Assembly: GCA_002170395.1 (NCBI GenBank)
Contig: NHEJ01000007.1
Coordinates: forward strand, 105,955 to 169,954
Source: Betaproteobacteria bacterium TMED82
GTDB taxonomy: Bacteria > Pseudomonadota > Gammaproteobacteria > Burkholderiales > Burkholderiaceae_A
Direction: 5' to 3'
DNA: 64,000 nucleotides
Shown here: one piece after another, positions 1,155 through 18,578 of the stretch
Numbering within the stretch: the stretch's first letter is position 1
How the letters are laid out: every line of letters begins with the position of its first letter
Notes under the pieces: generated by a model
The model's database searches: none
Told to the model about the DNA's origin: nothing
Seen by the model: the letters and a program-made list of their open reading frames with translations, nothing else
Position numbers and translations under genes: made by a program

Positions 1155-3269
1155 ATGGCATCAACTACAACGAGCGACTTTTTTTCAAATATAAAACAAA
1201 ATCTTGCTAAGTTCGATACTTCATCGCTAAGTATTCCTTCGCTTGTACTCCTTATTATGGCAATGTTGGTTATTCCCCTGCCACCGATTATTCTTGATGT
1301 GCTTTTTACTTTTAATATTCTGGTTGGGCTGATGGTCATTATGATAGCTATCGGAACTAAAAGTGCTTTGGAGTTTTCCTCGTTTCCCGCCGTTTTACTC
1401 TTAGGTACTATGCTTAGACTTGCGTTAAACGTAGCCTCAACTAGGGTTGTGTTAGTAAACGGGCACACTGGGGTGGATGCAGCCGGTTCAGTAATAGCTT
1501 CTTTTGGTGAGTTTGTAGTGGGAGGCAATTACGTAGTAGGTGCTATCGTATTTGGAATACTGATCTTGATTAATTTCATGGTTATTACCAAAGGAGCTGG
1601 AAGAGTATCAGAAGTTACGGCAAGGTTTACACTAGATGCGATGCCTGGCAAACAGATGGCGATCGATGCTGACCTAAATTCCGGGAACATTGATAGTGAT
1701 CAGGCAAGAAAGCGTAGGGAAGAATTGTCTCAAGAGGCAGATTTTTTTGGTTCAATGGATGGTGCTTCAAAGTTTGTTAGAGGGGATGCTATCGCAGGGC
1801 TCTTAATCCTTTTAATCAATTTGGTTGGAGGATTAATTATTGGGATTGCTCAACATGACCTATCGTTTGCAGAGGCAGGACGTCTTTATTCCTTATTGAC
1901 TATTGGTGATGGTTTGGTTGCCCAAATCCCAGCATTATTTCTGTCGTTGGCCACGGCCATCATTGTTACACGAGTTTCCACTTCTGAATCTATGACTGAG
2001 CAAACCAAAGCACAATTATCAAATCCAGCGGCACTTTTTATTTCTGCTAGTATTCTTGTCTCCTTGGGCGCCATACCAGGAATGCCAACAAACGTATTTA
2101 TAACAATGGGTGTTTTGGCGGCTGGTCTGGGGTTTTTTGTTCTACAGAAAAAAGTAGCTGAAAGAGACGAGAAGTCGGCAGGCGAGGAATCGACTGAAGA
2201 TGAGCCAAAAGAGCTAGATTGGGACGATGTTGACCAGGTGGACTTAATTGGTTTGGAGATTGGTTATGGTCTTATCCCTCTTGTTAATCCAGAAACAGGG
2301 GGACAACTAATGGCCCGGGTAAAAGGAATAAGAAAAAAATTATCAGCTGAATTAGGTTTTTTAGTTCAGCCTGTGAGAATTAGAGATGCTTTGAATTTAG
2401 AGCCCGACTCCTACCACATAGTATTAAACGGTGTTGTTAGAGCTAAAGGTGAGGTTAGGGTTGGTCAAGAGCTTGCAATTAGTCCTGGACAGGTTCACGG
2501 TGATTTGGACGGAGAGAAAACTAAAGACCCAGCTTTTGGATTGGAAGCTGTTTGGATTGATCCATCTCAGAGTGATTATGCACGCACTTTAGGCTACACG
2601 GTAGTGGATCCCGCCACAACCGTAGCAACCCACTTGAATAAAGTCTTGAGAGAAAGTGCCGCTGAATTATTAGGTAGAGATGAAACGCAACAGCTGTTAG
2701 ATAAGTTAGCATCAAAGACACCAAAATTAGTTGAAGATTTGGTCCCGGGAAAATTGCCTTTGGGTACAGTCACTAAAGTCCTACAGAATTTACTTACTGA
2801 AGGAGTAGTAATCAAAGACATGAGAACAATTATTGAGACGTTATCAGACGAGTGTGGCAAGACTCAGGATCCAGAGCAACTTACCAGCTTGGTAAGGCCA
2901 AAGTTAGGAAGAATGATTATTCAGAGTATAGTGGATGCTGACTCTACTCTAGAAGTGATGACTTTGGATCCAGAACTAGAGCAACTGCTTCATAATGTAC
3001 TGCAGCAGAATCAGGGTAACCAAGAAGTAATACTCGAGCCTGGATTAGCAGAGGGCCTCTTTAAGTCCTTGAGGGAGAGTACTCAGGAGGTTGAAGATCA
3101 AGGTCAACCAGCTGTTTTAGTGGTTTCACCATCAATTAGACCTTGGCTTTCAAGATCAGTAAAACACAGAATCGCTGAGTTGATAGTTTTGTCTTACAGT
3201 GAAATACCGGACGATCAGGCCGTTAAAGTAATAAAAACGATTGAGTTAAATTTGAAAGATAAAAATTAA
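1155..3269 (+). CDS. flhA: Flagellar biosynthesis protein FlhA
   Basis: FlhA is the large inner-membrane component of the flagellar type III export gate; its cytoplasmic ring receives chaperone-substrate complexes. The 704 residues fit the family. The N-terminal half has about eight membrane helices, beginning with a segment around residues 25-45 (LVLLIMAMLVIPLPP). The conserved cytoplasmic loop between helices contains MPGKQMAIDADLNSG, a FlhA/InvA signature. The C-terminal half is the soluble FlhAc domain, with RPWLSRSVKHRIAEL near the end. It starts a run with flhF, flhG and fliA, an order typical of beta- and gammaproteobacteria with polar flagella. flhB is not in the window. Confidence 0.97.
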   Translation: MASTTTSDFFSNIKQNLAKFDTSSLSIPSLVLLIMAMLVIPLPPIILDVLFTFNILVGLMVIMIAIGTKSALEFSSFPAVLLLGTMLRLALNVASTRVVLVNGHTGVDAAGSVIASFGEFVVGGNYVVGAIVFGILILINFMVITKGAGRVSEVTARFTLDAMPGKQMAIDADLNSGNIDSDQARKRREELSQEADFFGSMDGASKFVRGDAIAGLLILLINLVGGLIIGIAQHDLSFAEAGRLYSLLTIGDGLVAQIPALFLSLATAIIVTRVSTSESMTEQTKAQLSNPAALFISASILVSLGAIPGMPTNVFITMGVLAAGLGFFVLQKKVAERDEKSAGEESTEDEPKELDWDDVDQVDLIGLEIGYGLIPLVNPETGGQLMARVKGIRKKLSAELGFLVQPVRIRDALNLEPDSYHIVLNGVVRAKGEVRVGQELAISPGQVHGDLDGEKTKDPAFGLEAVWIDPSQSDYARTLGYTVVDPATTVATHLNKVLRESAAELLGRDETQQLLDKLASKTPKLVEDLVPGKLPLGTVTKVLQNLLTEGVVIKDMRTIIETLSDECGKTQDPEQLTSLVRPKLGRMIIQSIVDADSTLEVMTLDPELEQLLHNVLQQNQGNQEVILEPGLAEGLFKSLRESTQEVEDQGQPAVLVVSPSIRPWLSRSVKHRIAELIVLSYSEIPDDQAVKVIKTIELNLKDKN

Positions 3270-3285: not shown

Positions 3286-4785
3286 ATGGAATTAAAAAGA
3301 ATTATTGCTAGGGACTTGAGGTCAGCAACAGAAGAAGCCATAAGAATATACGGGCCAAATACTCTTGTAGTCTCGAGTGAAAGACATAACGGCAAGGTAG
3401 AGGTAATTGTTGCTGCAGATCTGACGCCGGAACCACTCATTTATTCAGAGAAGGAAAATAGAATTCAAAACAATAAAAATGAAAAAATCTCGCTATCTGA
3501 TGAATTGGCAAGGGAATGTTTCGATGATATTTTGAATAAGTCGATGAATAATGACAGAGTAAAAGCCAAGTCATTGAAAGGAGATTTTGCCAATTCTGAA
3601 AAAACAAGAGAAAAAAGAAAGGCTAGTGATAGTGGGTCAAAAAGGAAATCCTTTGCATCCTTTCAACCTAGTTTAAGTCAACGTAAAAAAACGGTAGAAC
3701 CAAAAATCAATCGAGTAGAAGATTTGAACTTTTCCCAGGATTTCAAAGACTCTACTCGCAAGTCTCTTGAGATTCGAGAAGACAAAGCGGAACAAATATA
3801 CTCAGCCAGAGAAACGGAAGAGAGTGACTCTTTAAGAGCTAAGGAATTAGTAGACCTAGTGCTGAGAGAAGTTGCTGAGATGAAAAAAGAATTTAAGTTA
3901 ACAAAAAAAATGATGGTAGAAAAGAGTCAGGACGATTTGTCGGAAAGTCTCGAAGCCCTAATTAAATCAATTCATGATGCAAATTTACCGGTAAGTTTGG
4001 AAACTTTGTTACTTGGAGACTTTTACTCTTTCAAGGACGAGAATGAGGCTTTGCTATCTATCAAAACGCAACTATTGAATTCAAGCGGTGGGAAAACAGT
4101 TTCGTCAAAAACCGAGTTATTATCAGGAGTACATATTATTGCCGGACCAGCAGGGTCTGGAAAGACATCGGCAGCAATAAAGTTTGTGAGTAATGCGCTA
4201 AAGCATAATGTTCCACCAGAAAAAATTGCAGTTCTAAGCTATAAAGACCAGAAAATAGGTGGTTGGACTCAGCTGCAAATGGCAACGTCAAGTCTCGGAG
4301 TTGAAACTTTCAAAGTTATGACGGAAGATTTTTTTACGGCAAATGCGATAGAATTATCACAAAAGGAATTAATTCTGATAGATACATCTAGAACTTTCTT
4401 GACAGAGAAAGCCAATACACTTTCTTTAAATAGTTTAAATAAAAAAGTCTTTTATCATCTAGTTTTAGGAGCAGATGCTCCTGCCTCGGTTTTTACTAAA
4501 TACCTTAGCAGTTCCGATGAATATTGGAGTGACGTCATTGTAAGCAAGTTTGATGATTCAATTGCTCCTTGGGGACTTTTGCAAGATGTGCTTAATGGTG
4601 ATTCTCCAATTTGTCCGATTTGTTGTTGCGGACCTAGTGCAGAAGATTGGTTTTATTTTGAAAGTAATATTTTTATAGAAAAAGTTTTGTCTTTGATTTT
4701 TGATTTGGCAGCCAATCAAAGCAAAAAAATAACCGCTGTCGGGTTAAAATCAACGAATGAGCATTATTTGGAAAAAAATCTATGA
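3286..4785 (+). CDS. flhF: Flagellar GTPase FlhF, divergent
   Basis: FlhF is an SRP-type GTPase that sets the position and number of polar flagella together with FlhG. The start is ATG at 3286 behind a strong GGAGG. The N-terminal B domain is followed by a long charged linker (about residues 60-220) and a C-terminal NG domain. The P-loop GPAGSGKT is at about 287-294. Other GTPase motifs are weakened: DTSR stands where DTAGR is expected (about 366-369) and SKFDDS where TKLDE is expected (about 420-425). Near the end, CPICCCGP (about 443-450) occupies the place where relatives carry the GQRVPEDL segment. The gene overlaps flhG by four bases. The identity is secure from context and fold; GTP hydrolysis is uncertain. 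Confidence 0.9.
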   Translation: MELKRIIARDLRSATEEAIRIYGPNTLVVSSERHNGKVEVIVAADLTPEPLIYSEKENRIQNNKNEKISLSDELARECFDDILNKSMNNDRVKAKSLKGDFANSEKTREKRKASDSGSKRKSFASFQPSLSQRKKTVEPKINRVEDLNFSQDFKDSTRKSLEIREDKAEQIYSARETEESDSLRAKELVDLVLREVAEMKKEFKLTKKMMVEKSQDDLSESLEALIKSIHDANLPVSLETLLLGDFYSFKDENEALLSIKTQLLNSSGGKTVSSKTELLSGVHIIAGPAGSGKTSAAIKFVSNALKHNVPPEKIAVLSYKDQKIGGWTQLQMATSSLGVETFKVMTEDFFTANAIELSQKELILIDTSRTFLTEKANTLSLNSLNKKVFYHLVLGADAPASVFTKYLSSSDEYWSDVIVSKFDDSIAPWGLLQDVLNGDSPICPICCCGPSAEDWFYFESNIFIEKVLSLIFDLAANQSKKITAVGLKSTNEHYLEKNL

Positions 4786-5585
4786 AGACTAGTCAGCCGG
4801 AAGTTATAGGGATAGCCAGTGGTAAGGGTGGAGTTGGTAAAACAACTGTCTCTGTAAACTTGGCTTCATCTCTTGCTCAGTTGGGAAAAAAAGTCTTTTT
4901 ATTTGATGGAGATTTAGGGCTGGCAAATGCTCAAATTGCGCTTGGATTAAAAAGCGAATTTAATATTAGTCATGTAATTACTGGTGAAAAAAGTTTGAAT
5001 GAGATTTTGATTGAAGGTCCCAAAGGGATTACTTTAATTCCTGGCGCTTCTGGAGTTAAGCAGATGGCTGCTCTGAGTGAAATTGAGACTGCTGGTGTTG
5101 TGCAAGTATTCAGCGAGTTACGCGGAGATTTGGATTATTTAATTATTGACATGGCTGCGGGTATTTCACCGTCCGTACTTACTTTAATGGAAGCTTGCCA
5201 CCGGAGAATAATTGTCGTAATCGATGATCCGTCATCAATCGCAGACGCCTACGGAGCAATTAAAGTTATAACTCAGCAGAGTGATCGTGAAGACATTTAC
5301 CTAGTTCAAAACCGGGTACAAGAAAACGATCGCTCAGATATCTTATTCCATCGAATGAATAATGTATGTATGAAATTTTTAAATCAATCAATTTTTTCAC
5401 TTGGTGCTATTAGTGAAGACGAGTTTTTATTGGAAGCGCTAAGGAATAAAAAAACTATTCAAGAATTTGCACCGAGTAGTTTGGCTGCGAGGGATTTCAA
5501 GTTTTTAGCCGAAAAAGTTCTCTCTTTTGAGCCTCTTCAGCAAGTTGAGGGAGGCCTTGAATTCTTTGTTGAAAGAAAAAACTGA
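4782..5585 (+). CDS. flhG: Flagellar number regulator FlhG (FleN, MinD-like ATPase)
   Basis: FlhG is a ParA/MinD-family ATPase that antagonises FlhF and limits flagellar number. The deviant Walker A motif with two lysines, GKGGVGKTT, is at about residues 14-22, and the switch region DGDLGLANAQ follows at about 42-51. LIIDMAAG (about 120-127) is the Walker B region. The length of 267 is normal. Translation is coupled to flhF through an ATGA overlap, and fliA follows 17 bases after the stop, so flhF, flhG and fliA are probably cotranscribed. Confidence 0.95.
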   Translation: MKTSQPEVIGIASGKGGVGKTTVSVNLASSLAQLGKKVFLFDGDLGLANAQIALGLKSEFNISHVITGEKSLNEILIEGPKGITLIPGASGVKQMAALSEIETAGVVQVFSELRGDLDYLIIDMAAGISPSVLTLMEACHRRIIVVIDDPSSIADAYGAIKVITQQSDREDIYLVQNRVQENDRSDILFHRMNNVCMKFLNQSIFSLGAISEDEFLLEALRNKKTIQEFAPSSLAARDFKFLAEKVLSFEPLQQVEGGLEFFVERKN

Positions 5586-5602: not shown

Positions 5603-6328
5603 ATGAATAATTCTATCTCTAATCCTTACAAGACGAGTGAAAATGAAAATCGCGAGGCCTTAATTACTGAACATATGGGTTTAGTTAAAAGAGTGGCTCT
5701 TCATCTTAAGGCTCGACTCAGTCCATTCATGGAATTAAACGAGATAATACAGGTTGGTATGATTGGTCTTATTGAGGCCGCCAAAGCTTTTGATGCATCT
5801 AAGGGAGTTGACTTTGAAAATTTTGCTCACAGAAGGGTTAAAGGTTCAATTATCGATGAAGTACGAAAATTATCATATTTGCCAAGGTCCGCTGTAGCAA
5901 TAAACAAACAACACAATGAAAGTGCCAGAGCTTTATCGGCTTCCTTGGGAAGAGCCCCTTCTCAAGGTGAATTGGCTGCCTCTATGGGAAAAGAAATAGG
6001 GAGCTTTCAAAAAGAAAGGGGGCAGGCTGCAAGATTTGAAACTATTCACTTAGAGGATTTTTCTGAGCACGTTTTAAATATACCTGATGAAAGGGCTAAG
6101 CAGCCGGAAACTATTGTAGAGGACAGCGAATTCATGAATGCGATAGTCTCCGCAATCGATGAATTACCGAGTAGAGACAAAATGGTAATGTCTCTTTATT
6201 ATCAAGAGGAAATGAACCTCAAGGAAATAGGTGAGGTTCTTGGCGTAAGCGAATCAAGGGTTAGTCAAATTTTAAGTCAGAACGTTAAAAAGCTGCGGGG
6301 TATACTTTTCCAAGACATTGTTTCTTGA
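5603..6328 (+). CDS. fliA: RNA polymerase sigma factor FliA (sigma-28)
   Basis: FliA directs transcription of late flagellar and chemotaxis genes and is held by the anti-sigma factor FlgM until the hook is complete. The 241 residues contain sigma region 2 (around LITEHMGLVKRVALHL and IQVGMIGLIEAAKAFD), region 3, and region 4 with a helix-turn-helix in LKEIGEVLGVSESRVSQIL near the C terminus. FliA-type sigma factors lack region 1.1, as here. ATG at 5603 follows AGGAAAAA. It is the last recognised member of the flhA-flhF-flhG-fliA run. flgM is not in the window. Confidence 0.96.
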   Translation: MNNSISNPYKTSENENREALITEHMGLVKRVALHLKARLSPFMELNEIIQVGMIGLIEAAKAFDASKGVDFENFAHRRVKGSIIDEVRKLSYLPRSAVAINKQHNESARALSASLGRAPSQGELAASMGKEIGSFQKERGQAARFETIHLEDFSEHVLNIPDERAKQPETIVEDSEFMNAIVSAIDELPSRDKMVMSLYYQEEMNLKEIGEVLGVSESRVSQILSQNVKKLRGILFQDIVS

Positions 6329-6452: not shown

Positions 6453-6986
6453 ATGATTTTTGGGGGTGGTAAGCTTCAGGAACTGAAGAATCAGGCTAAA
6501 GCAGATTATGAAAGAGCTGTAAACTCTAAAGAGGATTCTAAGGAGGAAAGGGCTTTTAAACTAAAAATTGGGCTTAGGATAAGATCCTGTATTGACAAGC
6601 TTTTTGTGGACGGCGCTGAAAAATACGAAAAATATTCGGAGGTTTGCCTGGCAGCAGTAGCTAGCAATGACGAGAAACCTCCTCCCCCTAAGGCATCTAC
6701 TTTTAATAAAGTTAGGTCAGTTAATGGGCCGATTTTTGTTTATCTACCTGAGGATATCTCGGAAAATATTTTTTCTTTGGGAGGTAAATATCAAACTGTC
6801 GAAATTGATGCAAAAATTGCGATCAGGAGAGCCCAAGTTATTGCTAACCAAATTGCGTATGATCTTGATTTGCCAAATAAACTCGTCGTTTTGCAGTTTT
6901 TGCGAGATGAGTTGGAAGAGGCGGGAGACCCTTTTAGTGAGGATGAAGAGATTGACGATAATGACTCTGAGACAGAAAAAAAATAA
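6453..6986 (+). CDS. Uncharacterised protein with acidic C-terminal tail, in flagellar cluster
   Basis: I do not recognise this 177-residue protein. ATG at 6453 is preferred over an in-frame TTG at 6441 because GGGG lies at normal spacing before it. The N-terminal part (about residues 7-75) is charged and looks helical. A short PPPP stretch follows at about 75-78, then a mixed central region. The last 25 or so residues are strongly acidic (SEDEEIDDNDSETE). There is no signal peptide or membrane segment, so it is probably cytoplasmic. It sits between fliA and another unknown acidic-tailed gene, followed by fliS, a spot where related bacteria often keep chemotaxis or flagellar accessory genes. 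A flagellar or chemotaxis role is inferred from position only. Confidence 0.6.
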   Translation: MIFGGGKLQELKNQAKADYERAVNSKEDSKEERAFKLKIGLRIRSCIDKLFVDGAEKYEKYSEVCLAAVASNDEKPPPPKASTFNKVRSVNGPIFVYLPEDISENIFSLGGKYQTVEIDAKIAIRRAQVIANQIAYDLDLPNKLVVLQFLRDELEEAGDPFSEDEEIDDNDSETEKK

Positions 6987-7100
6987 AACGATATATTATC
7001 AGGAGACCCGGTAAAGATTTTACAAGTACAATAGTGTCGTTGAATTCTAAAGATCATAAATTGTCTGACGATTAGATTTACATCGTAATGGAGGTTTCCC

Positions 7101-7922
7101 ATGGCAACTTTATTGCTTTTTATTCTTCTGTTTTTCAGTGCTGCTCTATTAGTTATGGTGATTTACACTATTGACAGGTTGAATAGTGTAGAAAAAATAA
7201 CTTCGGTATTGAATTCTGTAGTAGCTCCTTCTCCTTCGGTAAGTGGGATTGAAGCTCAGGCAATGTTTGATGGTTTGACTGGTATGACTTTGTGGGAAGC
7301 TATGAGCGGTAAACCGGTTGAAGGCTGGGACGAAGAAGTTTTAGAGACTATGAAGCCTCGTTACAAAATAGTTCTACAGAAACACACAGAGGCTATTTTT
7401 GATGAGGGATTGCTAGATGGACACCAAGAAACTTACAAGCACTTACCCTCAAATACGATGATAGTTTCAATGTTAAGAGGAGCAGTTGAGTCTTGGATAC
7501 CTCAAAATTATGCCAGTGGGGTGTATCAAATCGGCTTAGAGTGGTCGAGAAATGACATCTCTGAGGCTAAGCGATTAAGAGAGCGTCTCGACTTGTTAGT
7601 CGATGAGATGTTTTCTGATTGTGATATCGAGTTAAAGTCCCCACTTTCTCGTACATTATTACCAGAAAGTGAGGAAGAACGCTTGAGAGCTGATAGCGAG
7701 GAAACAGCAGAAGATGGTGATGAAACTGCATTACAGCTGGGCTCGAATGAGACTTCTATTACTGACAGCGATGAGTTAGTCTCGGAAGAAACTCAGTCCG
7801 GCGCCCCTGTAGATGAGGATGCTGAAGGGGCTGAAGAAAAAGGGCCAAGCGAAAAAACTCCTGAAAATGTAGGAGTTCAGCCCAAAGTTTCTCCACAGGT
7901 TCCAGCGCCGACTCAAGCTTAA
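7101..7922 (+). CDS. Uncharacterised single-pass membrane protein with long acidic tail
   Basis: I do not recognise this 273-residue protein. The start is ATG at 7101 behind GGAGG. Residues about 3-22 (LLLFILLFFSAALLVMVIY and neighbours) form one membrane anchor. A globular-looking domain follows (about 45-185), with several tryptophans and the stretch MTLWEAMSGKPVEGW. From about 188 to the end the chain is acidic and Pro/Glu/Ser-rich, probably disordered. The N-terminal anchor without a cleavage site suggests a tethered soluble domain; which side it faces cannot be told. It lies between another acidic-tailed unknown and fliS, so a part in flagellar assembly or placement is possible, but nothing in the protein itself shows this. 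Confidence 0.7.
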   Translation: MATLLLFILLFFSAALLVMVIYTIDRLNSVEKITSVLNSVVAPSPSVSGIEAQAMFDGLTGMTLWEAMSGKPVEGWDEEVLETMKPRYKIVLQKHTEAIFDEGLLDGHQETYKHLPSNTMIVSMLRGAVESWIPQNYASGVYQIGLEWSRNDISEAKRLRERLDLLVDEMFSDCDIELKSPLSRTLLPESEEERLRADSEETAEDGDETALQLGSNETSITDSDELVSEETQSGAPVDEDAEGAEEKGPSEKTPENVGVQPKVSPQVPAPTQA

Positions 7923-7966
7923 AAAAAAAATTAAAGAATAGCATGTCAATGTCGATCATTTTACTA

Positions 7967-8004: not shown

Positions 8005-8442
8005 ATGAGGGCACGTCAAAAAGCAATAGAAAGTTATGGGGAGGTTAACGTTGTTTCAGGCGTTAATTCTGCGGATAATGTGCAATTAATTCAAATGCTT
8101 TTTGATGGACTTGTGGAAAGTTTGAAATCTGCAGAAGGCCAAATTAACCGAGGTGAAATAGCTGGTAAGGCAAAAAGTTTAGCTAGAGCTAGTAAAATTG
8201 TTCTTGGATTACAAAATGCACTTGACTTCGACGAGGGCGGCGAGATTGCAACTAATTTGAATGAACTATATAGTTATGTAGTTCGTCGTTTATTCCATGT
8301 TAACGCCCACAATGATATTGAAGCTTTGAAAGAAATTCATGGGCTCATGGAGGAAATAAGGCAGGCATGGAAGTCAGTACCTTCCCTAATTGGAACGAAA
8401 AAAAACAATAGTGGTTCTCGTAAAGAAGCGGTTGCGAATTAA
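8005..8442 (+). CDS. fliS: Flagellar export chaperone FliS
   Basis: FliS binds the C terminus of newly made flagellin and keeps it unpolymerised until export. The 145-residue all-helical protein has the family pattern: YGEVNVVSG near the N terminus, then VQLIQMLFDGLVESLKSAEG, and a later YSYVVRRLFHVNAHND. ATG at 8005 follows AGGAG. Flagellin (fliC) and fliD, usual neighbours, are not in the window, so fliS appears separated from its partners. Confidence 0.9.
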   Translation: MRARQKAIESYGEVNVVSGVNSADNVQLIQMLFDGLVESLKSAEGQINRGEIAGKAKSLARASKIVLGLQNALDFDEGGEIATNLNELYSYVVRRLFHVNAHNDIEALKEIHGLMEEIRQAWKSVPSLIGTKKNNSGSRKEAVAN

Positions 8443-8765: not shown

Positions 8766-9102
8766 GGGGTTTCCAGCCGGACTCTCACTTTACTGTAATA
8801 TTTATTCATAATGATGTCACTAAGCTAGTGCTAAGAGGTTAAGCTTGAGCTCATCAATTGTGCAAATTTTTATTATTAGTATTAACTTACCTAGACGTAA
8901 AAACTTAGCGGGAAGAACCATTTAAATTTAAAAAGTATATTCATGAATCTGATAGTTCTACGATGGCTAGGGCTAAAGCAAACCAAGATACCCGAATTCA
9001 TAATCTATTAGAGAGAATCGATACACTTATTCAGTGAAATACTTGGTTTTAAGTGTGGCTGCTTTTTGTAAATAGGTCGTATTTGGTGTAGTGTTAATTG
9101 CT
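8766..9102. other. Intergenic stretch with no supported gene
   Basis: Between the frameshifted small gene and gspG I see no RNA gene, terminator or convincing promoter. A 24-codon frame on the plus strand (ATG 8963 to TGA 9037, MARAKANQDTRIHNLL at its start) reads like protein but has no start signal, and may be a remnant. The next gene begins at 9103. Confidence 0.5.
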
Positions 9103-9555
9103 ATGACTAAGAGTAATTCTTCTCCTAAGAAGCTTCTAAAAATACCCAAGGGTTTCACCATAATAGAGATTTTGGTGGTAATTGCAATCATCGGCATTTT
9201 AGCAGCTGCTCTCGTTCCCCAGCTTATGAAGAGACCTGACCAAGCTAGGGTAGTTGTAGCAAAGCAAGACATAGTGACGATAGTGCAAGCTCTTAAAATG
9301 TATCAATTGGATAATTATTTTTTACCTAGTGAGGAACAAGGGTTAGTTGCGCTAGTGAGGAAACCTGAAATGGACCCTATCCCTGGAAACTGGGTGGGGC
9401 CATATTTGAGCAAATTGAACGATGATCCCTGGGGTACTGCTTATGTTTATCGTAATCCGTTAAATGGCGCTGAATTTGAAGTTTTTTCTTTGGGAGCCGA
9501 CAGTAAAATTGGCGGAGAGGGTGCAAATGAAGATATATCCTCCACGAGGCTTTAG
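9103..9555 (+). CDS. gspG: Type II secretion major pseudopilin GspG
   Basis: GspG forms the body of the periplasmic pseudopilus that pushes folded proteins through the GspD secretin. The prepilin signal is IPKG followed by FTIIEILVVIAIIGILAAAL, with Glu at position +5, as needed for processing by GspO. The C-terminal part has the GspG pattern DPWGTAYVYRNP and FSLGADSKIGGEGANEDI, including the acidic residues that bind calcium in the family. ATG at 9103 gives 150 residues; an upstream in-frame GTG at 9091 is an alternative. It starts an eleven-gene cluster with overlapping reading frames. The prepilin peptidase gene is not in the window. Confidence 0.96.
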   Translation: MTKSNSSPKKLLKIPKGFTIIEILVVIAIIGILAAALVPQLMKRPDQARVVVAKQDIVTIVQALKMYQLDNYFLPSEEQGLVALVRKPEMDPIPGNWVGPYLSKLNDDPWGTAYVYRNPLNGAEFEVFSLGADSKIGGEGANEDISSTRL

Positions 9556-9976
9556 CTTAGTAGAGGTTTTAACCGTAATAGCACTATTATCTATTACTTT
9601 AATGGTTTCAACTTTTTCAATTCAGTATCTAGAAAAGAAACGGGTACAGTCAGAAATTAATAGATTCAAACGAATAGTAGGTATGGTTGTCGATAGGTCT
9701 ATCATTTTAAGACGCCCCATGACGATTGAAGTTTATCATCACAGTTATCAAATAAAAGAGCTTTGGCGTTCGTCTTGGAAGCTTATGCAGGACGAAGGTC
9801 TTGCCCCTTATAGTTTTAAGTACTCGCTACGAGCTTCTATTAATGAGTACCCAATATATTTTAATTCGAGCGGGTTAGCAGAACCCCATTCATTCACTAT
9901 GTCTGCGGGAAAAATGAAATATAAATATTTAATCTCGATAAATGAGTTTGGAAATGTTGAAATTAGTGATAAATGA
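9527..9976 (+). CDS. gspH: Type II secretion minor pseudopilin GspH
   Basis: The start at 9527 places the prepilin motif correctly: PRG followed by FSLVEVLTVIALLSITLM, with Glu at +5. The 149-residue protein overlaps gspG by 29 bases. A longer frame begins at 9464 but would add an unrelated 21-residue leader read from inside gspG. GspH is one of the minor pseudopilins that prime or cap the pseudopilus. The rest of the chain is poorly conserved, as is usual for GspH, so the exact letter rests on its place between G and I. Confidence 0.88.
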   Translation: MKIYPPRGFSLVEVLTVIALLSITLMVSTFSIQYLEKKRVQSEINRFKRIVGMVVDRSIILRRPMTIEVYHHSYQIKELWRSSWKLMQDEGLAPYSFKYSLRASINEYPIYFNSSGLAEPHSFTMSAGKMKYKYLISINEFGNVEISDK

Positions 9977-10356
9977 ACGATAAGCGACAGCTTATCAAAA
10001 AGCCAATCGGATTTACATTAGTTGAGTCTTTGGTAGCTTTAGTTATAGCATCTATTGGCCTTTTATCAGCCATTAAAGTATTTACTATGATCTCAGGCGC
10101 ATTAGAGAAAACTAAGAAGCAGAACTATGCACTGATAAGTTCCCAGAACGTGATGGAGCAGGCTTTCCTGAGATTTAACCTACCACCGGAATTGAAAGAG
10201 AGCAAGGACTGTTCCCAGGGAAACTTAAAGTTACGTTGTGAATTAACAGTTTCTAGAACTTCACATCCGAACTTTAACAAACTAGAAGTTAAAGTTCTCG
10301 ACGCATCGGGCAATATTTTAGTGAGGGAAATAGCTTTCAAGGGAGAACAGTTTTGA
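9973..10356 (+). CDS. gspI: Type II secretion minor pseudopilin GspI
   Basis: This 127-residue protein has the prepilin motif PIG followed by FTLVESLVALVIASIGLL, with Glu at +5. It overlaps gspH by four bases (ATGA). GspI forms the tip complex with GspJ and GspK. The length, and the order H-I-J-K, fit GspI. The gspJ start codon overlaps its stop. Confidence 0.92.
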   Translation: MNDKRQLIKKPIGFTLVESLVALVIASIGLLSAIKVFTMISGALEKTKKQNYALISSQNVMEQAFLRFNLPPELKESKDCSQGNLKLRCELTVSRTSHPNFNKLEVKVLDASGNILVREIAFKGEQF

Positions 10357-10895
10357 AAAAAATTTACTGCGAGAATTCCTTAGAGCCCAGAGGACTTACA
10401 TTATTGGAGGTTTTAGTAGCATTGACTGTTATATCGGCGGTTTCTCTCATTTCTTTCAGAGTAGTCTCTGAACTAACCCAAGTACATACAAGATCTCAAC
10501 GGGAGGAATTAAGACAGAAAAGTGTATTTAATTTAAATCGACTATTAAAGGCTGATTTTCAATCGTATAACTACTATTCCAAACAGCATTTTTTTGACAA
10601 CTTTTTTTTTGATGGGGAAAAGCTAGAATTACCTGGAGGGATTACTTGGAAGTTAGAGTCAGGAGAATTACATAGAGAGAAGCGAAATCAAAAAAAAAAC
10701 TCGAGAACATTAGTGGTTTTGGAAGGAGTAAATGCTCTTAGAATTTCATTATGGCTAAATGGAGTTTTTGTTTCATATAATACTGTAAATAAAAAAGACC
10801 TCATTGATTCAAATACTTTTGGTATTGAAGTTGAAATTATTAAAAAAAGCAATAATGTAATAAGGCAGGTTTTTAGAATTCGGGGGTTTGTATGA
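10353..10895 (+). CDS. gspJ: Type II secretion minor pseudopilin GspJ
   Basis: The start is TTG, overlapping the gspI stop (TTTTGA). The prepilin motif PRG followed by LTLLEVLVALTVISAV lies at about residues 12-30, after a leader of about 13 residues; Glu is at +5. At 180 residues it is the larger minor pseudopilin expected before gspK. GspJ joins GspI and GspK at the pseudopilus tip. It overlaps gspK by four bases. Confidence 0.92.
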   Translation: MKKIYCENSLEPRGLTLLEVLVALTVISAVSLISFRVVSELTQVHTRSQREELRQKSVFNLNRLLKADFQSYNYYSKQHFFDNFFFDGEKLELPGGITWKLESGELHREKRNQKKNSRTLVVLEGVNALRISLWLNGVFVSYNTVNKKDLIDSNTFGIEVEIIKKSNNVIRQVFRIRGFV

Positions 10896-11824
10896 TGAAG
10901 CACATGCCATCAGGGTCCGCTGTTCTTTCTGCACTACTAGTCGTTTCAATTACTGCAGTATTAGCTAGTACTGCTTTGTTGGCGGTTAATTCATCAATTT
11001 TAAGAATACAGGCACAAAAAGATATCTCCCAGGCACAATGGATCGTTTTAGCGGTGACTGATTATGCAAGATGGGTGTTAACTGCCGATTTGAGAGGATC
11101 AAATAAATCTTCAAATCAATTCGATCATCTTTCAGAACCTTGGGCTCAGATAATTCCATTTAGTAGATTAGATGAATTATTTATCGAGAAATTAGACATT
11201 GAGAAGGAGAGAATGGCGTTGGCCGGATTTGAGGGCTTTATTAGAGATGAACAATCTAAGTTAAACATCGCAGGAATTTCAGATGGTTTTAAAGACGCTG
11301 AACTCATAGAAAAAAGCTTGAAAAATCTATTTCTTCTTCTTAAGATTGAAGAAAAAAAATTTAGGAAGTTCATTACATTGATTCGTTTCAGTTCAAAAAA
11401 TGACTTTTTGAAAAAAAATAGGAATTTTAGGATTTCTGAGCTTCCTGATTTATTGAGTAAGTTGGATTTAAGTAAAAAGGATAATCAATTACTATCTGAG
11501 AGATTGATATGGCTACCAGAGCATTCACCTGTGAACATCAACACCGCTTCAGTGGAGGTAATATCAGCCATATTTGACGAGACAGATACTTCAAAACTAA
11601 GCTTTTTACTAGAGACGCGAAAAAAATATCCATTTAGATCTATTTCCGAAATAGAGTCTGCTTACGTTACTTCCAATAGACAAAGCTATAATTTGTTGGA
11701 TACTAAAAGTAGTTATTTTTCTTTACATGGCACAGTAATATTCAATAAGGCTGAGAATTCCTTTAGAACTTTGCTGCGAAGATTTGATGACAAGGTTGTT
11801 GCAATATTTGAAGATAAAGCTTGA
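10892..11824 (+). CDS. gspK: Type II secretion minor pseudopilin GspK
   Basis: GspK is the largest minor pseudopilin and sits at the tip of the pseudopilus. The N terminus MMKHMPSG followed by SAVLSALLVVSITAVLAS is prepilin-like but has no Glu at +5, a known feature of GspK. The C-terminal part carries a helix-hairpin-helix-like stretch, PVNINTASVEVISAIF, also typical. The length of 310 fits the family. It is translationally coupled to gspJ and followed directly by gspL. Confidence 0.93.
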   Translation: MMKHMPSGSAVLSALLVVSITAVLASTALLAVNSSILRIQAQKDISQAQWIVLAVTDYARWVLTADLRGSNKSSNQFDHLSEPWAQIIPFSRLDELFIEKLDIEKERMALAGFEGFIRDEQSKLNIAGISDGFKDAELIEKSLKNLFLLLKIEEKKFRKFITLIRFSSKNDFLKKNRNFRISELPDLLSKLDLSKKDNQLLSERLIWLPEHSPVNINTASVEVISAIFDETDTSKLSFLLETRKKYPFRSISEIESAYVTSNRQSYNLLDTKSSYFSLHGTVIFNKAENSFRTLLRRFDDKVVAIFEDKA

Positions 11825-11829
11825 ATATA

Positions 11830-13281
11830 ATGAATTTAATTTTCGAAAATATCAGATATTTAGATAATAAAGAAATTGATGTAGAAATGAATGTTCTGTG
11901 TTCTGATGATAGCGGAGTATTTTTTAAAAGACGAACCTTTAAAGATTTCTTTGACGAGTGGAAAGATTACGAACTAAGACAAAAAAAGAGATTAACTATT
12001 TTTGTTGCCAGTGAATTTTTACTATCATCTGACATAAATAGTGCAGCAAATGATTATCAAGAAAAGAGTAGTTTGGTACGTACTCATCATTTATGGCATG
12101 AAAATATTTTTCATAAGATTGACCCTTTTTTTCTGGATTTACAGGAAAAGTTTTTCCGAAAATTTCGCGATGGAATGAGTTCCTTAGGTTTTCAAATAAC
12201 GACTGTAAAGCCATTGGGGCTAGCTTTATCCTGGAGGATAAATCAGGTTATTATATACATTTGTAATGATCTGATTACAATACGGTATGGTTTAAATGAT
12301 TTTTTTTCATTGAGACTTTCTCAAGATATTGATGAAAAAGATTCAAAAAAAAATATTTCAACACTTCTTAGTTTATTTGGTGATGAAAAAGAAATTGTCA
12401 CTATGAGTATAGGAGAAAAAGACAACAATTTTCTAGAAGCACTTGTGGGAAAAAATATTTCGAGGAGTTCTCTTAGATTAAATTTGTATACCCCCAATTT
12501 AGAAATATCAAATAAAAAATTGAAAGATAGACTGCTTCAAAAATTTGAGTATATCAGGATAGTTACATTTAATAAGTTTGCCGTCAGAGGATCAATTTTT
12601 GAAGAATTGCGATTGCCTTTGGGTTTTTTAAGCATAGCTATTTTGTTTTCGACGATTTCGTATTTTTTTTCCGCTGGAGATATAAAAACTAATCAAAATG
12701 ACACTGTTATTGGTCAAAATGACGGGAGTAAATTAGGAGACCGTTGGTTTTTAATTAAAGAATTAGCTCAAGTTATTTCTGATGGAGAAAGTATAGAGCT
12801 AAGCTATTTGAATCTTATTTTTGATAAAAATTTAAGTTCGCTGCTTGTTGAGTTTGGGTTCCTAGAAGATCTTATAATTTCCGAGGATAAATATAGAAAA
12901 ATAGTTGGGTCGTTGAAGGCTAAAAGCATATTGTCGGAGAATGTGAATATTAGTCTGTCGAAACAGGACTCAACTATTCTCCAGATTAAACTTAAAAGTG
13001 TCGAGATTGTAAAATATAAAAGTATGCCGAAAGAGGAATTTCGAGCGTATTTGTTGGATTTAGCTAAAGAGTCACAACTAAAGCTTGAGGGAGTGAAGAA
13101 ACAATTTCATATTGAGGTAAAGAACATAATATTAGTCAAGATGGGCAACCAGAATGTTGATGATTTAAGTAGTTTTTTAAATCGTTTAAGTGAAAGTAGA
13201 TCTGGGTGGTCATGGAAGGAAATTCGCATAGACAGGGTGAATAAGGGAGTAGTTAGATTTGAAGGATCCTTAACCAGGTAA
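11830..13281 (+). CDS. gspL: Probable type II secretion protein GspL, divergent
   Basis: GspL is a bitopic inner-membrane protein that couples the GspE ATPase to the pseudopilus. ATG at 11830 is chosen; an in-frame TTG lies nine bases upstream. The N-terminal part (about residues 1-260) is cytoplasmic and only weakly like the actin-related GspL domain. One membrane helix (LPLGFLSIAILFSTISYF) is at about 263-280, followed by about 200 periplasmic residues. The assignment depends on place (after K, before N) and on this topology. No gspM lies between it and gspN, and the last 40 residues vaguely recall the C terminus of GspM, so the protein may cover part of both roles. Confidence 0.72.
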   Translation: MNLIFENIRYLDNKEIDVEMNVLCSDDSGVFFKRRTFKDFFDEWKDYELRQKKRLTIFVASEFLLSSDINSAANDYQEKSSLVRTHHLWHENIFHKIDPFFLDLQEKFFRKFRDGMSSLGFQITTVKPLGLALSWRINQVIIYICNDLITIRYGLNDFFSLRLSQDIDEKDSKKNISTLLSLFGDEKEIVTMSIGEKDNNFLEALVGKNISRSSLRLNLYTPNLEISNKKLKDRLLQKFEYIRIVTFNKFAVRGSIFEELRLPLGFLSIAILFSTISYFFSAGDIKTNQNDTVIGQNDGSKLGDRWFLIKELAQVISDGESIELSYLNLIFDKNLSSLLVEFGFLEDLIISEDKYRKIVGSLKAKSILSENVNISLSKQDSTILQIKLKSVEIVKYKSMPKEEFRAYLLDLAKESQLKLEGVKKQFHIEVKNIILVKMGNQNVDDLSSFLNRLSESRSGWSWKEIRIDRVNKGVVRFEGSLTR

Positions 13282-13312
13282 TAGTTAGTCAATTCATCAG
13301 AAATACTTAAAT

Positions 13313-14104
13313 GTGATGCTATTCAAAATAATATTCTTTTGTGCAGTGTTTTGTAGTTCCATGTTATTGAATTTACCACCCTCTTGGATTGACAGGTTAT
13401 GCGAGGCCAGCTCATCAAATATGCTGCGTTTCGGGAACACATCCGGAACCTTTTGGGAGGGGGAGGGGGATTTGATATTAAACGACGATTTCTTCGGTGG
13501 AGAAAATGTTGAGTTTAGCTTTAACCGTGAGCAAGTCAGATTGCTAAAGAATGTAAGGTGGAGCTTTAAACCGTCTTTTAATTCTGCTGAGGGGTTGATT
13601 CTCAAAGTAAATATTAAGCACCCTTCATTGAGATGGAAAAATAAGAAAAGCATTTATATTTCTTATGATTCCGTAAAGTTACCCGCAGGAAATTTAAATT
13701 TAAAGAAGCTTGAAATAGGAAGGGTGGGAGGTCTACTAGGCACCATTAATCCAAAATTTGTTTTTAGCGCGAGTTGGTCAAATATTAAAATGTCGAAGAT
13801 TGATAATAAAGGTGAGGATTTCGATATGATATTTAAGCTCAATGATTTCGAAACAAGCTTATCAAACTTTAAACCATTAGGCAGTTATCGATTTGATCTA
13901 AAGAGTAAAAATAGCCAATTTTTTTGGTCGGTGAATGCAAAGCCGGGTAGCATAATAAAAATAGTCGGAAAAGGTCAAATAGTTGATAGTCTTGTTGGTA
14001 GGGTGAAATTAAAATGTACTAGGTATTGTGAGTATTTGGTAAGTTTACTAGAGGTTGTTGGTAGAAAAAATGGAGAGGAATATGAAGTATTTTTTGGCGG
14101 GTAA
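13313..14104 (+). CDS. gspN: Type II secretion protein GspN
   Basis: The first 20 residues form a signal or membrane anchor (LFKIIFFCAVFCSSMLLNLPP). The stretch LRFGNTSGTFWEGEGDLIL matches the GspN pattern in which a short beta repeat contains SGTxWxG. The remaining chain is predicted to be mostly beta. GspN is a periplasm-facing accessory component of uncertain role, found in only some type II systems. In beta- and gammaproteobacteria it follows gspM; here it follows gspL directly. The length of 263 is normal. The end overlaps the gspD start by 23 bases. Confidence 0.82.
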   Translation: MMLFKIIFFCAVFCSSMLLNLPPSWIDRLCEASSSNMLRFGNTSGTFWEGEGDLILNDDFFGGENVEFSFNREQVRLLKNVRWSFKPSFNSAEGLILKVNIKHPSLRWKNKKSIYISYDSVKLPAGNLNLKKLEIGRVGGLLGTINPKFVFSASWSNIKMSKIDNKGEDFDMIFKLNDFETSLSNFKPLGSYRFDLKSKNSQFFWSVNAKPGSIIKIVGKGQIVDSLVGRVKLKCTRYCEYLVSLLEVVGRKNGEEYEVFFGG

Positions 14105-16139
14105 GACGCAACTTAATTTAGTTCTACTAATAGCTTTTATATTGATGATGAAAATATCCTCTGTAACTGGACAAATTACACCAGCTGCAATTCAACAGGA
14201 TGACCAAAATGGAATGGTCACTTTATCTTTCATAGACTCGGAAATTGCTAATGTAGTTGCAGCTTTTAGCGAGTCACTCGGTAAGCCTTTTTTGTTAGAC
14301 CCGAGGGTAAAAGGAAAAATATCTTTGCAAGCACCTAATCCGATACCCCTCATTCGGGCGTATGAAATGTTTGTAGCATCTTTAGATCTATATGGATTTG
14401 ATGTTGTTGAGGGTGAGTTTTTTAATACTGTAGTCCCAGCCACTGATGCAAAAACCAAAGCTCCAGAATTAATAGCAGGTAGTAAGATAGAGCGGAATGG
14501 TTTGATAACGAAGGTTTTTAAATTAAAGAATCAGAGTGCTGCTGAGATAATGAATGCAGTTAGAGCTCTGGTGCCTGCCACTAACCCAATTACGGTGAAT
14601 AGTTCTTCAAATACTCTTATAGTCACTGATATTTCTAGCAATATTGAGAAGATTGGGAAGCTAATAAGTGCGGTTGATGATACGCAAATATGGTATGGAG
14701 AAACTTTTAGGGCACAACACATACCAATTAACGATCTAGCTTTTTTGGTGGATAGAGCTGTAAACGAGAGTAATAAAATTCTAAAAAATCAAATGGGTGA
14801 TTTTTCTCGCTTAACTATTATTCCCAGCTCTAGAACTAATTCCATGTATTTAAAATCATACAAAAAGAAAAATATAGAGTTAGCAATTAGTGTGGCGAGT
14901 AAATTTGATATGCCTACTGCCAATCCGGGCAATGTTCATGTTGTATATTTAAAAAATGCTGAAGCAGCATACATTGCCGACACATTGCAGAATCTGTTTG
15001 GTTTGAGCGAGATAAAGGGGGCGTCAACAGAAAATTTGAGTTCTGGTTCAAAGCAATCTATTATCCGTAGACAAGATAAACTGCAGGAAGCTAATAAATT
15101 GTCCTCCAGCCCAGAGTCCGGAATTTCCATTCAGGCCGAGCCTAACGTAAATGCTGTTTTAGTGGTTGCTGCAGAACCGATTTTTAGACAAATAAAAAAA
15201 GTGATTGACCTTCTTGACATAAGGAGGGCACAAGTGTTTTTGGAGTCTTTGATAGTAGAAATTTCCGCAGATAAAGCGGCTGAATTTGGTGTTCAGTTTC
15301 AGTACTTGGGAGGACTAGATTCTGTGGGAGAACAGTTTTTTGGCGGGACCAATTTTTCATCTGGAGGGGATAATTTGCTTTCATTAATTCAAAATCCAAC
15401 TCTCGCTGATGGAGGGCTAAATATTGGAGTTATTAATGGAACGGTGAATGTTCCTGGTGTAGGTGATATTACTAATCTCGGCTTACTTATAAGAGCACTA
15501 GAGACTCAAGGGAACGCAAATGTTATAGCCACTCCAACCTTACTTACCTTAGATAATGAAGAAGCAAAAATTGTGATTGGTCAAAATGTACCATTTGTGA
15601 CTGGTCAGTTCACCTCAACTGCAACTGGCAATAACCCATTCCAGACCGTAGAAAGGCGAGATGTTGGTACTACCCTTACGGTTAAACCATTGATAACTCA
15701 AGGAAATACAGTCAAGTTGAAAATTTTTCAGGAAGTCTCTAGAGTTTTAGACTCCGAACTTTCTTCCACTTTTGGTACTGTCTCCACGACAAAGCGTTCA
15801 ATAGATTCAACTGTTTTAGTCGAGGATGAACAATTCGTTGTCCTTGGAGGTCTGATTCAAGATCAAGATGCAGATATTGAGAATAAGGTGCCCCTGTTAG
15901 GTGATCTTCCTATAATGGGCAATTTTTTTAAATATGAGAGTAAAAGTAGGAGAAAAACAAACTTATTTGTTTTCTTAAGACCAGTTGTAATAAGAAATCA
16001 AGAAGATGCTAATGTTTTAACCGCTGACCGATATACGATTTTGAGGGGGATTGCTGAGCGTGAACAGAGAAAGGAGTCATTTATCTTGCCAAACTTTGAT
16101 CCATTGGAAATCCCTAAAATACCAACCTACACCGATTAG
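14082..16139 (+). CDS. gspD: Type II secretion outer-membrane secretin GspD
   Basis: GspD forms the multimeric outer-membrane channel of the secretion system. ATG at 14082, behind GGAGAGG, gives 685 residues and a clean signal peptide (LVLLIAFILMMKISSVTGQ). Longer in-frame starts at 14055 and 14070 lack such spacing. The N0 domain starts with VTLSFIDSEIANVVAAFSES; N1-N3 domains follow. The secretin core holds VPLLGDLPIMGNFFKY and LFVFLRPVVI near the end, both strongly conserved. There is no sign of a pilotin-binding S-domain beyond a short tail. Confidence 0.96.
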   Translation: MKYFLAGKTQLNLVLLIAFILMMKISSVTGQITPAAIQQDDQNGMVTLSFIDSEIANVVAAFSESLGKPFLLDPRVKGKISLQAPNPIPLIRAYEMFVASLDLYGFDVVEGEFFNTVVPATDAKTKAPELIAGSKIERNGLITKVFKLKNQSAAEIMNAVRALVPATNPITVNSSSNTLIVTDISSNIEKIGKLISAVDDTQIWYGETFRAQHIPINDLAFLVDRAVNESNKILKNQMGDFSRLTIIPSSRTNSMYLKSYKKKNIELAISVASKFDMPTANPGNVHVVYLKNAEAAYIADTLQNLFGLSEIKGASTENLSSGSKQSIIRRQDKLQEANKLSSSPESGISIQAEPNVNAVLVVAAEPIFRQIKKVIDLLDIRRAQVFLESLIVEISADKAAEFGVQFQYLGGLDSVGEQFFGGTNFSSGGDNLLSLIQNPTLADGGLNIGVINGTVNVPGVGDITNLGLLIRALETQGNANVIATPTLLTLDNEEAKIVIGQNVPFVTGQFTSTATGNNPFQTVERRDVGTTLTVKPLITQGNTVKLKIFQEVSRVLDSELSSTFGTVSTTKRSIDSTVLVEDEQFVVLGGLIQDQDADIENKVPLLGDLPIMGNFFKYESKSRRKTNLFVFLRPVVIRNQEDANVLTADRYTILRGIAEREQRKESFILPNFDPLEIPKIPTYTD

Positions 16140-16150
16140 GTTTTTTGCTG

Positions 16151-17521
16151 ATGAATTCTGAGGATATTGAGAATTTTATGATGTGGAAAGTAGTACCTTG
16201 CCGGGATAAGAGAGAAATTTGGTTTACCCTTGAGTCTCCCCCATGGGGAGTTGCGAGTGTTTTTTCAGTGGAAGATTATAGGAAATTTAGCCTAGTCGTC
16301 AAGAACCAAGATGAGGTTCAAAAAAAAATCAAAGAAGAGTTTTATTCCAAAGCAACTGTCTCTGAAATAATCGGGCATGCAGAGGGACAGGAGAAGCTAA
16401 TTGGTCTTCTTGAAGATAAGCCTCCTCCCACCGACGAGGATCTAAACTTCGAGGACGACGCCCCGGTAATTAGAATCATTAATACATTTATCGCGAATGC
16501 TTTACTTAAGGAGTCCTCAGATATACATTTTGAACCATATGAAAAAGACTCTATCGTAAGGTTTCGTATTGATGGGGTTTTACAGGATGTAGCTCGACCA
16601 ATGCGAGCTCTATACTCCGCATTAGTGTCGAGAATTAAAATAATGGCCCATTTAGATATTGCAGAACGCAGATTACCACAAGATGGGAGAATGAAAATTC
16701 GTTTAAACGATAGGGAAGTAGATATAAGAGTATCGACTTTACCAACGGGTAGTGGTGAGCGAGTTGTGATGCGTCTCTTAGACAAAAGAAACTTAGGAAT
16801 GAAGTTAGATGATTTAGGGATGAGCCAGGAGATCAAAAATAAGTTTGTAAATTGCATTGACAAACCTAATGGAATAATTTTAGTGACTGGTCCAACTGGT
16901 TCTGGTAAAACAACTACTCTTTATGCATCTCTGGAAAAACTTAATGCACAAGATCGTAATATCATGACTGTGGAGGATCCAATTGAGTACGATATAAAGG
17001 GTATTTCACAAACTCAGGTGCTGCCAAGAATTGGATTGGACTTTTCTAATGTTTTGAGGGCAATTCTCCGACAAGATCCGGACGTTATTATGATCGGAGA
17101 GATAAGGGATACAGAAACCGCCAGAATTGCCGTGCAAGCCTCCTTAACCGGACATTTAGTACTGGCAACTTTGCATACAAATGATGCTGCTTCTGCTGTA
17201 GTTAGGTTAAGAGATATGGGTATAGAGCCTTATTTGATTTCCTCTACTTTGAATGCAGTTTTAGCCCAAAGATTAGTTCGTAAGCTCTGCAAGAACGGCA
17301 ATAGCTATAAAGGAAGGACTGGTATATATGAACTATTGGAAATTAACGATACCGTAAGAGAACTTATCAAAAAGAATACAGATAATAATGTTTTGCGAAG
17401 GAAAGCTATCACTCTTGGCATGAAAACCCTTATCGATGACGGAAATAGATTAGTGGATTTGAGTATTACGGATGAGGAGGAAGTAGCAAGAGTAACTCTT
17501 TTAACGGAGGATGAAAATTAG
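16151..17521 (+). CDS. gspE: Type II secretion ATPase GspE lacking the zinc module
   Basis: GspE is the cytoplasmic hexameric ATPase that drives pseudopilus assembly. ATG at 16151 is preferred over TTG at 16145. Walker A GPTGSGKTTTLYASL lies in the middle, the Asp box and Walker B (DPDVIMIGEIRD) follow, and the His box is LTGHLVLATLHTND. Between RLVRKLC and GRTGIYELL, relatives usually carry about 40-50 residues with four cysteines that bind zinc; here only about eight residues remain and a single cysteine. The gene still reads in frame, so this is a loss of a subdomain rather than a broken gene. The stop overlaps gspF by 11 bases. Confidence 0.95.
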   Translation: MNSEDIENFMMWKVVPCRDKREIWFTLESPPWGVASVFSVEDYRKFSLVVKNQDEVQKKIKEEFYSKATVSEIIGHAEGQEKLIGLLEDKPPPTDEDLNFEDDAPVIRIINTFIANALLKESSDIHFEPYEKDSIVRFRIDGVLQDVARPMRALYSALVSRIKIMAHLDIAERRLPQDGRMKIRLNDREVDIRVSTLPTGSGERVVMRLLDKRNLGMKLDDLGMSQEIKNKFVNCIDKPNGIILVTGPTGSGKTTTLYASLEKLNAQDRNIMTVEDPIEYDIKGISQTQVLPRIGLDFSNVLRAILRQDPDVIMIGEIRDTETARIAVQASLTGHLVLATLHTNDAASAVVRLRDMGIEPYLISSTLNAVLAQRLVRKLCKNGNSYKGRTGIYELLEINDTVRELIKKNTDNNVLRRKAITLGMKTLIDDGNRLVDLSITDEEEVARVTLLTEDEN

Positions 17522-18578
17522 AAAATCATCTTTATTTTCAGAAACAAAAATCAGTAGTGCTACTTTAGAGTTACTTACTAAGCAGATGTCTGTTTTACTA
17601 TCCTCCGGTGTAACCTTAGAAAAAACGTTACACATTATTGAACTTCAATGTAGAGGTAGGACATCGAAAATATTTAAGGAACTCAGTCTATCTATTCAAT
17701 CGGGACACTCTTTTGCGAAAGCTCTTTCTAAGTATCCCAGAGACTTTTCCGATGTGTACAGGGGGTTCGTGTTTGCGGGAGAAAACTCTGGTCAACTTTC
17801 GGAAGTGTTTTTTAAATTATCGAAGTTTTTGGAAATGAGGAACTCCTTAAAAAAAAGTATCCTAACAGCCTTAACTTATCCTTTTATAGTTGTTCTTATG
17901 TCTTCTTTAATAATAATTTTGTTGATGGCTTATGTCGTACCAGAAATCACGACTGTATATACTTCGCAAAGTAGAGAATTGCCTTTATTAACAATAGGTT
18001 TAATCTTTATAAGCGATTTTTTAATTAAGTGGGGGGCATCAATTAGTTTACTTTTGGGGTTTTTACTCGTGATGATGACGGTAGCATATTCTAAGAAAAC
18101 GAAGTTTAGAATATTTTGTGATTTTTTTCTTTTAAAACTTCCAGTAATTGGTAAATTAATGTTGTTAAGTGAAATGGCGATGTTCGCAAATACTTTAAAT
18201 ATGTCAATCTCTGGAGGTTTAGATCTGTTGAAATCACTTCAAATTACACACAGAGTAACCAGTAATATGCATTTGCTCCTAAATATAAAAAAAGTGATCA
18301 ATATGGTTCGTGAGGGGGTACCCCTCGGTAAAGCCTTATCAAAAACTGCGGCATATCCAAAGTTATTACCTCAACTGATAACTATCGGAGAGGAAACTGG
18401 GCAATTGGCTAAGATGTTAGATCTTTGTGCCAGACAATCCATTGAGCAATTTAAAAGTCAGTCAAACACAGTAGCGATCTTTTTAGAACCGCTTCTTATT
18501 CTTTCTATGGGGGTACTTGTTATGTTAATAGTATTAGCAGTCATGATGCCGTTGATAGAAATGAATGTGGTTATTTAA
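17511..18578 (+). CDS. gspF: Type II secretion inner-membrane platform protein GspF
   Basis: GspF is the polytopic platform protein that works with GspE and GspL. ATG at 17511 lies right behind ACGGAGG, inside the end of gspE. The protein has the duplicated GspF domain: the first copy around LLTKQMSVLLSSGVTLEKTL, the second around LSEMAMFANTLNMSISGGL. Membrane segments are at about 120-145, 165-190 and near the C terminus (LLILSMGVLVMLIVLAVMM). The length of 355 is slightly short but within range. Confidence 0.95.
   Translation: MKIRKSSLFSETKISSATLELLTKQMSVLLSSGVTLEKTLHIIELQCRGRTSKIFKELSLSIQSGHSFAKALSKYPRDFSDVYRGFVFAGENSGQLSEVFFKLSKFLEMRNSLKKSILTALTYPFIVVLMSSLIIILLMAYVVPEITTVYTSQSRELPLLTIGLIFISDFLIKWGASISLLLGFLLVMMTVAYSKKTKFRIFCDFFLLKLPVIGKLMLLSEMAMFANTLNMSISGGLDLLKSLQITHRVTSNMHLLLNIKKVINMVREGVPLGKALSKTAAYPKLLPQLITIGEETGQLAKMLDLCARQSIEQFKSQSNTVAIFLEPLLILSMGVLVMLIVLAVMMPLIEMNVVI

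Follow-up and report, generated by a model that had tools for sequence, protein, structure and literature searches.

What are the two genes that separate fliA from fliS in the flagellar cluster of the uncultured Betaproteobacteria bacterium TMED82, and what part might they play in the flagellum? The window, i.e. the whole stretch of 64,000 nucleotides analysed (contig NHEJ01000007.1, 105,955 to 169,954), comes from a genome of 1.58 Mb in 7 contigs that is 86% complete, and carries the gene order flhA-flhF-flhG-fliA-X-Y-fliS, X being the gene at 6453-6986 and Y that at 7101-7922, both between fliA and fliS. Families (f1, f13, f18, f49) and genera (g1, g2, g3, g117) are given under the labels of the search tool, f1 being the window's family and g1 its genus; L-numbers designate loci and G-numbers genomes. 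The features of the locus are:

1155-3269, forward strand: flhA, context (Pfam FHIPEP)
3286-4785, forward strand: flhF, context (Pfam SRP54 GTPase; named by position and type)
4782-5585, forward strand: flhG, context (Pfam ParA/MinD type; named by position)
5603-6328, forward strand: fliA, context (Pfam sigma-70 regions 2 and 4; TIGR02479, 218.6 bits)
6453-6986, forward strand: gene X, 177 aa, soluble (ORF, AlphaFold2 model, purifying selection)
7048-7074, forward strand: probable FliA (sigma-28) promoter of Y, TAAAG-N14-GACGATTA, 53 bp 5' of the Y start codon, conserved in the genus
7101-7922, forward strand: gene Y, 273 aa, N-terminal membrane helix (ORF, AlphaFold2 model, hydropathy)
7932-7958, forward strand: probable FliA promoter of fliS (in the promoter-model training set)
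8005-8442, forward strand: fliS, context (Pfam FliS, E 4e-34)

On the 3' side of fliS (9091-18578) lies a run of genes which, read by eye, resembles a type II secretion system with pseudopilin-like starts.

The X reading frame extends from an ATG at 6453, with GGGGA just 5' of it, to the end of its stop codon at 6986, an alternative TTG start being present at 6441; Y extends from the ATG at 7101, with GGAGG 5' of the start, to the end of its stop codon at 7922. Comparison of close relatives gave low dN/dS values, about 0.06-0.10 (X) and 0.13-0.15 (Y), which mark both as real proteins; X and Y are real genes under purifying selection. The initial annotation had described two genes in tandem within the flagellar block, between fliA and fliS, and its coordinates were right; its distinction between a soluble X and a membrane-anchored Y is fair by hydropathy, residues 3-21 of Y having a mean of 2.97 and X a maximum of 0.85.

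The same annotation could assign neither protein to a family that it could name, and the searches bore this out. A Pfam scan of X and Y gave no match, and even at E-values up to 10 there was no DUF2802, LysM or FimV match in Y or 11 Y members and no FliS match in X or 20 X members, fliS itself matching at 4e-34. No family was found in NCBIfam (one chance match, E 0.25) or PHROGs (best E 0.12), and a sequence search of the PDB gave no match for X or Y, the best E-values (0.22 and 0.35) being those of chance. Foldseek revealed no fold relative at E 0.001 or less, and the best VIA-align score was a Z of 3.5 to a TetR-type protein, an absent fold match proving little. No relative was detected in one scan of viral contigs or among the plasmids searched. 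No mention of these genes emerged from our literature searches, a statement meant for those searches and no wider.

Comparison of profiles and models indicates that X and Y are diverged copies of one previously undescribed domain, their shared ancestry being a computational result. A single-sequence BLAST of X against Y gave a weak match (E 0.007), and profile-profile comparison with hhalign gave 1e-6 over 62 columns, or 2e-6 over 78 columns with broader alignments. When 399 genomes of the order were searched with the X profile, the 19 matches comprised 15 X genes, 4 Y genes (E 1e-6 to 3e-4) and nothing else; the Y profile in turn detects X in L105 and L120. A hairpin signature reads NG-x-I-x-x-Y-I/L-P in X and G-x-V-x-S-W-I-P in Y.

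The AlphaFold2 model of X (mean pLDDT 88.8) contains a long helix (residues 30-70), a beta hairpin (84-97), helices at 100-114, 120-137 and 148-156, and a disordered acidic tail from about residue 162. That of Y (overall pLDDT 70.1, residues 61-190 mostly 82-95) begins with a predicted N-terminal helix (2-40), followed by the domain and, from about residue 204, by a disordered acidic tail. Compared by element order and not superposed, the two models have in common a long helix, two strands, helix, helix and short helix; since the order is the same and Y carries an extra membrane helix in front, Y is predicted to be, in effect, X on a membrane anchor.

Both acidic tails, which the initial annotation had stressed, are present in this genome (10 D/E and 2 K/R in X 159-177; 25 D/E and 5 K/R in Y 189-273). 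The stress on them is not supported: the tail of Y is 24-43% identical to those of its relatives in the genus, the core 77-82%, and in family f49 both tails are short and bear little charge. The tails evolve fast and are not the conserved part of X and Y; as the working part they were rejected, given their form in f49 and their rapid divergence even within the genus.

How far the pair extends was determined by genome searches. In a search of 100 genomes Y was found in 14 and X in 15 of the 26 genomes of f1, and nothing outside that family. The X profile, applied across the order, found X in 10 of 399 genomes (seven of f1 and one each of f13, f18 and f49); across the class X occurred in one of 369, the window's own. 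Within the other families X is present in 2/17 genomes of f18 and in 27/60 of genus g117 (f49). The relatives recovered with the X alignment are uncultured betaproteobacteria including MED-G174, TMED100, TMED41 and AG-913-B20. One record titled Bordetella parapertussis (CAMAZF010000036.1; L066/G014) groups with the uncultured family and is probably a mislabelled metagenome bin. The order flhG-fliA-X-Y-fliS was found at all 21 loci examined in two other families (L105 and L107-L126, representing one f18 genome and 20 of the 27 g117 genomes with X), and fliA-X-Y-fliS also in the window, nine f1 loci, L099 and L100. In one f13 genome (G127) X lies between fliA and fliS without Y. By their conserved gene order X and Y appear to be a flagellar accessory of some Burkholderiales, wider than one genus. 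The earlier suggestion of a lineage-specific flagellar part holds to that extent; the lineage is not a narrow one, as it takes in three families besides f1.

The pair accompanies one type of flagellum in betaproteobacteria. Among the g117 genomes X is present in 26 of the 47 with FliA over the cut-off and in 1 of the 13 without (Fisher p 0.003, only a guide, as genomes of one genus are non-independent). The one exception, G783, holds only an X paralogue, beside chemotaxis genes, so that an incomplete genome is the probable explanation. In f1, X is found in 14/21 genomes with FliA and 1/5 without; seven have FliA and lack X (G008, G011, G012, G013, G015, G019 and G020), and the stretches read in four of these (G008, G011, G012 and G020) encode other flagellar types. 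Over 35 genomes the distances of X and Y track those of FliA (r 0.90 and 0.92). With FliA taken into account the partial correlation of X with Y (0.39) is no greater than that of X with FliS (0.42), and the distances thus give no specific signal of X-Y coevolution.

The g117 genomes that have FliA and lack X indicate how the pair can disappear. Nine of these 21 were read: seven keep flhA-flhF-flhG-fliA with fliS directly after it, and two are of other types. The FliA tree, which has long outgroup branches and an uncertain root, unites the seven X/Y-free clusters in one clade (99/95) that lies among X/Y-bearing rows. Since they form one clade in that position, a single loss of the ancestral pair would suffice to explain all seven, the rest of the cluster having been kept. 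Seven genomes of g117 (G782, G790, G811, G812, G814, G816 and G822) have two FliA genes over the cut-off, and these probably possess two flagellar systems. Stator type was considered as a correlate of X/Y and rejected, since the MotB of G805, a genome with X/Y, is of the type that goes with X/Y-free clusters; MotA_N has no match in L100 (f18) and a match in L138, an X/Y-free locus of f49.

A further gene near flhB was considered as a partner. In the host genome the interval between flhB and motAB holds a 517-aa protein, a 128-aa protein and a 361-aa coiled-coil membrane protein, all unknown; these three genes lie upstream of the window (L154 10257-13365; C7 ~96756-99864). The 517-aa protein has a SPOR-like end in relatives, a weak match below threshold. 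SPOR domains elsewhere bind the septal wall, and this flhB-motB module may be a marker of the pole. The SPOR-like gene accompanies flhB in 15/15 X/Y-bearing clusters examined and in 3/5 X/Y-free ones; it goes with the type of cluster and not with X/Y, and was rejected as their obligate partner. Beside the SPOR-like module, near flhB, genome G349 has a second Y-type gene (L163 13689-14558, reverse strand; Y profile E 1e-34).

In an effort to place X and Y in the flagellar hierarchy, their upstream regions were scanned with a weight matrix built from 13 FliA-type sites 5' of fliS and flagellin genes, chosen by how well they match the E. coli sigma-28 consensus; five further fliS sites, whose matches were weaker or of another kind, were left out of this training set. 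A FliA-type site precedes Y in 7/7 genomes of the genus and 6/6 of the sister genus (shuffle p at most 0.013), and in the genus it is among the few blocks conserved in an intergenic region that has otherwise diverged. At p 0.05 or less such a site was found 5' of X at two of 17 loci, and at one of 14 X paralogues. With a predicted site 5' of Y in 13/13 f1 genomes and of X in 2/17 loci, Y is probably a late flagellar gene in the window's family and X is probably transcribed with the fliA operon. Outside f1 no FliA-type site was detected 5' of Y at the three loci scanned (L099, L100 and L133; families f18 and f49).

That X and Y are a new flagellar accessory pair with shared ancestry is well supported. 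The computational results on which a function can be built are this ancestry, the position fixed between fliA and fliS, inheritance along with the cluster, the single loss and the Y promoter in f1. Our tentative preference, a possible reading and not a firm one, is that the pair is an accessory of the FlhF/FlhG-type flagellum and forms a complex, tethered to the membrane, that acts late at the base of the flagellum. Flagellar reuse of the domain speaks for it: X paralogues lie between chemotaxis and flagellin-side genes in g117, and the second Y-type gene of G349 is near flhB. As suggested by place, layout and promoter, Y would anchor its domain to the inner side of the cell membrane, close to the base of the flagellum; X, as the related partner, would bind it from the cytoplasm; and the complex would act late, after FliA has become active, tuning the building of the filament or the running of the motor and not the start of assembly. 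The pair would be helpful yet dispensable; many flagellated relatives lack both X and Y.

What the flagellum of this organism does without bears on the role. The initial annotation had pointed to chemotaxis genes as frequent at such a place, and for X/Y this is unlikely here, CheW being found in 0/8 genomes of the window's genus (70-92% complete; absence in incomplete genomes is not proof) and in only 2/26 of f1. Genus g1 has flagellar genes, yet its flagellum apparently runs without chemotaxis. A chemotaxis adaptor of CheW type was accordingly rejected for this organism, there being no Pfam match either.

Among described systems, flagella of the FlhF/FlhG type are known mostly from gammaproteobacteria such as Vibrio, Shewanella and Pseudomonas, in which placement is aided by FipA and HubP/FimV (PMC11620751, PMC12826062); the FlhF/FlhG review PMC12826062 names HubP/FimV and FipA as landmarks. 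Like the HubP/FimV polar landmarks, Y has a single membrane helix and, within this genus, a cytoplasmic stretch of acidic residues. It differs from them in being short and without a LysM or FimV/TPR match, FimV being taken as described in PMC12918733. Y also resembles FipA (DUF2802, PF10975), the FlhF partner of polar flagella: FipA, as portrayed in PMC11620751, has a short N-terminus, one membrane helix and a cytoplasmic domain, and its gene lies downstream of flhA-flhF-flhG-fliA; Y has a single predicted N-terminal membrane helix, a cytoplasmic domain and the same neighbourhood. Y might accordingly stand in for FipA as a membrane protein that helps FlhF to find the cell pole, with X as its helper, which is conceivable in f1, where DUF2802 was found in 0/26 genomes (the same model matched 32/100 genomes, and 31/74 other genomes of the order were over the cut-off). 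Y nevertheless carries no DUF2802 and has a different domain, common with X, no X/Y member matches that family, and a FliA-type promoter fits a late gene and not an early placement factor. In g117, moreover, DUF2802 was found in 0/60 genomes, X/Y-bearing and X/Y-free alike, in a search that gave no match in its control genomes either. A simple replacement of FipA is not supported, as FipA was not found in g117 with or without X/Y, and the stand-in reading as a whole seems rather unlikely.

A service at the FliA/FliS step, in flagellin handling or the release of sigma-28 at the export gate, is likewise unlikely. The genes do lie between fliA and fliS, and fliS, encoding the flagellin chaperone, is the adjoining late gene with a FliA-type promoter like that of Y. 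In g117 an X paralogue sits beside the chemotaxis operon at 4/4 paralogue loci examined; at three of these loci it is flanked on the other side by flaG or flagellin genes. The distances of X track FliS slightly beyond FliA (the partial r of 0.42 given above). No sequence similarity of X to FliS was found, however, nor any clear fold match, little as an absent match proves, and a membrane-anchored copy would be unusual for an export chaperone.

The tentatively preferred late accessory complex can be drawn more specifically, as a new kind of ring or collar that is tethered to the membrane at the base of the FlhF-type flagellum, built from the duplicated domain (itself without clear match among solved structures) and adjusting a flagellum that runs without chemotaxis; in this particular form the proposal is quite doubtful.

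Copies of X outside the flagellar cluster bear on the last reading. Six genomes of the genus, including that of the window, carry an X-only paralogue at one fixed place away from flagellar genes, and in five of the six (not L076) an RND pump gene follows; this gene was confirmed as ACR_tran in the window's genome and read by eye in the others. At that place in the host genome (L043 5534-10226; C7 near 427 kb) the X paralogue is followed by a 341-aa protein and then an AcrB-type RND pump; the 341-aa protein, which has no Pfam match, sits where a membrane fusion protein would. More X copies at non-flagellar places occur in g2. Given such paralogues in the window's family, the X/Y domain is not tied to flagella. 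The flagellar role suggested in the initial annotation agrees with the fixed fliA-fliS place, the Y promoter in f1 and the co-occurrence of X with FliA; these X-only copies speak against a strictly flagellar one. That a general envelope protein domain came to lie in the flagellar operon by chance, as the f1 copies next to the RND pump gene and elsewhere outside flagellar clusters might suggest, is very improbable against a place fixed across families, a FliA-type promoter on Y and the rarity of X in genomes that lack FliA.

Among the Burkholderiales searched, FipA was not found in f1 or g117, and different, previously undescribed accessory genes occupy the same cluster. A duplicated domain in a soluble and a membrane-bound form, lost in one sister clade, offers a natural comparison for what such an accessory contributes to the flagellum.
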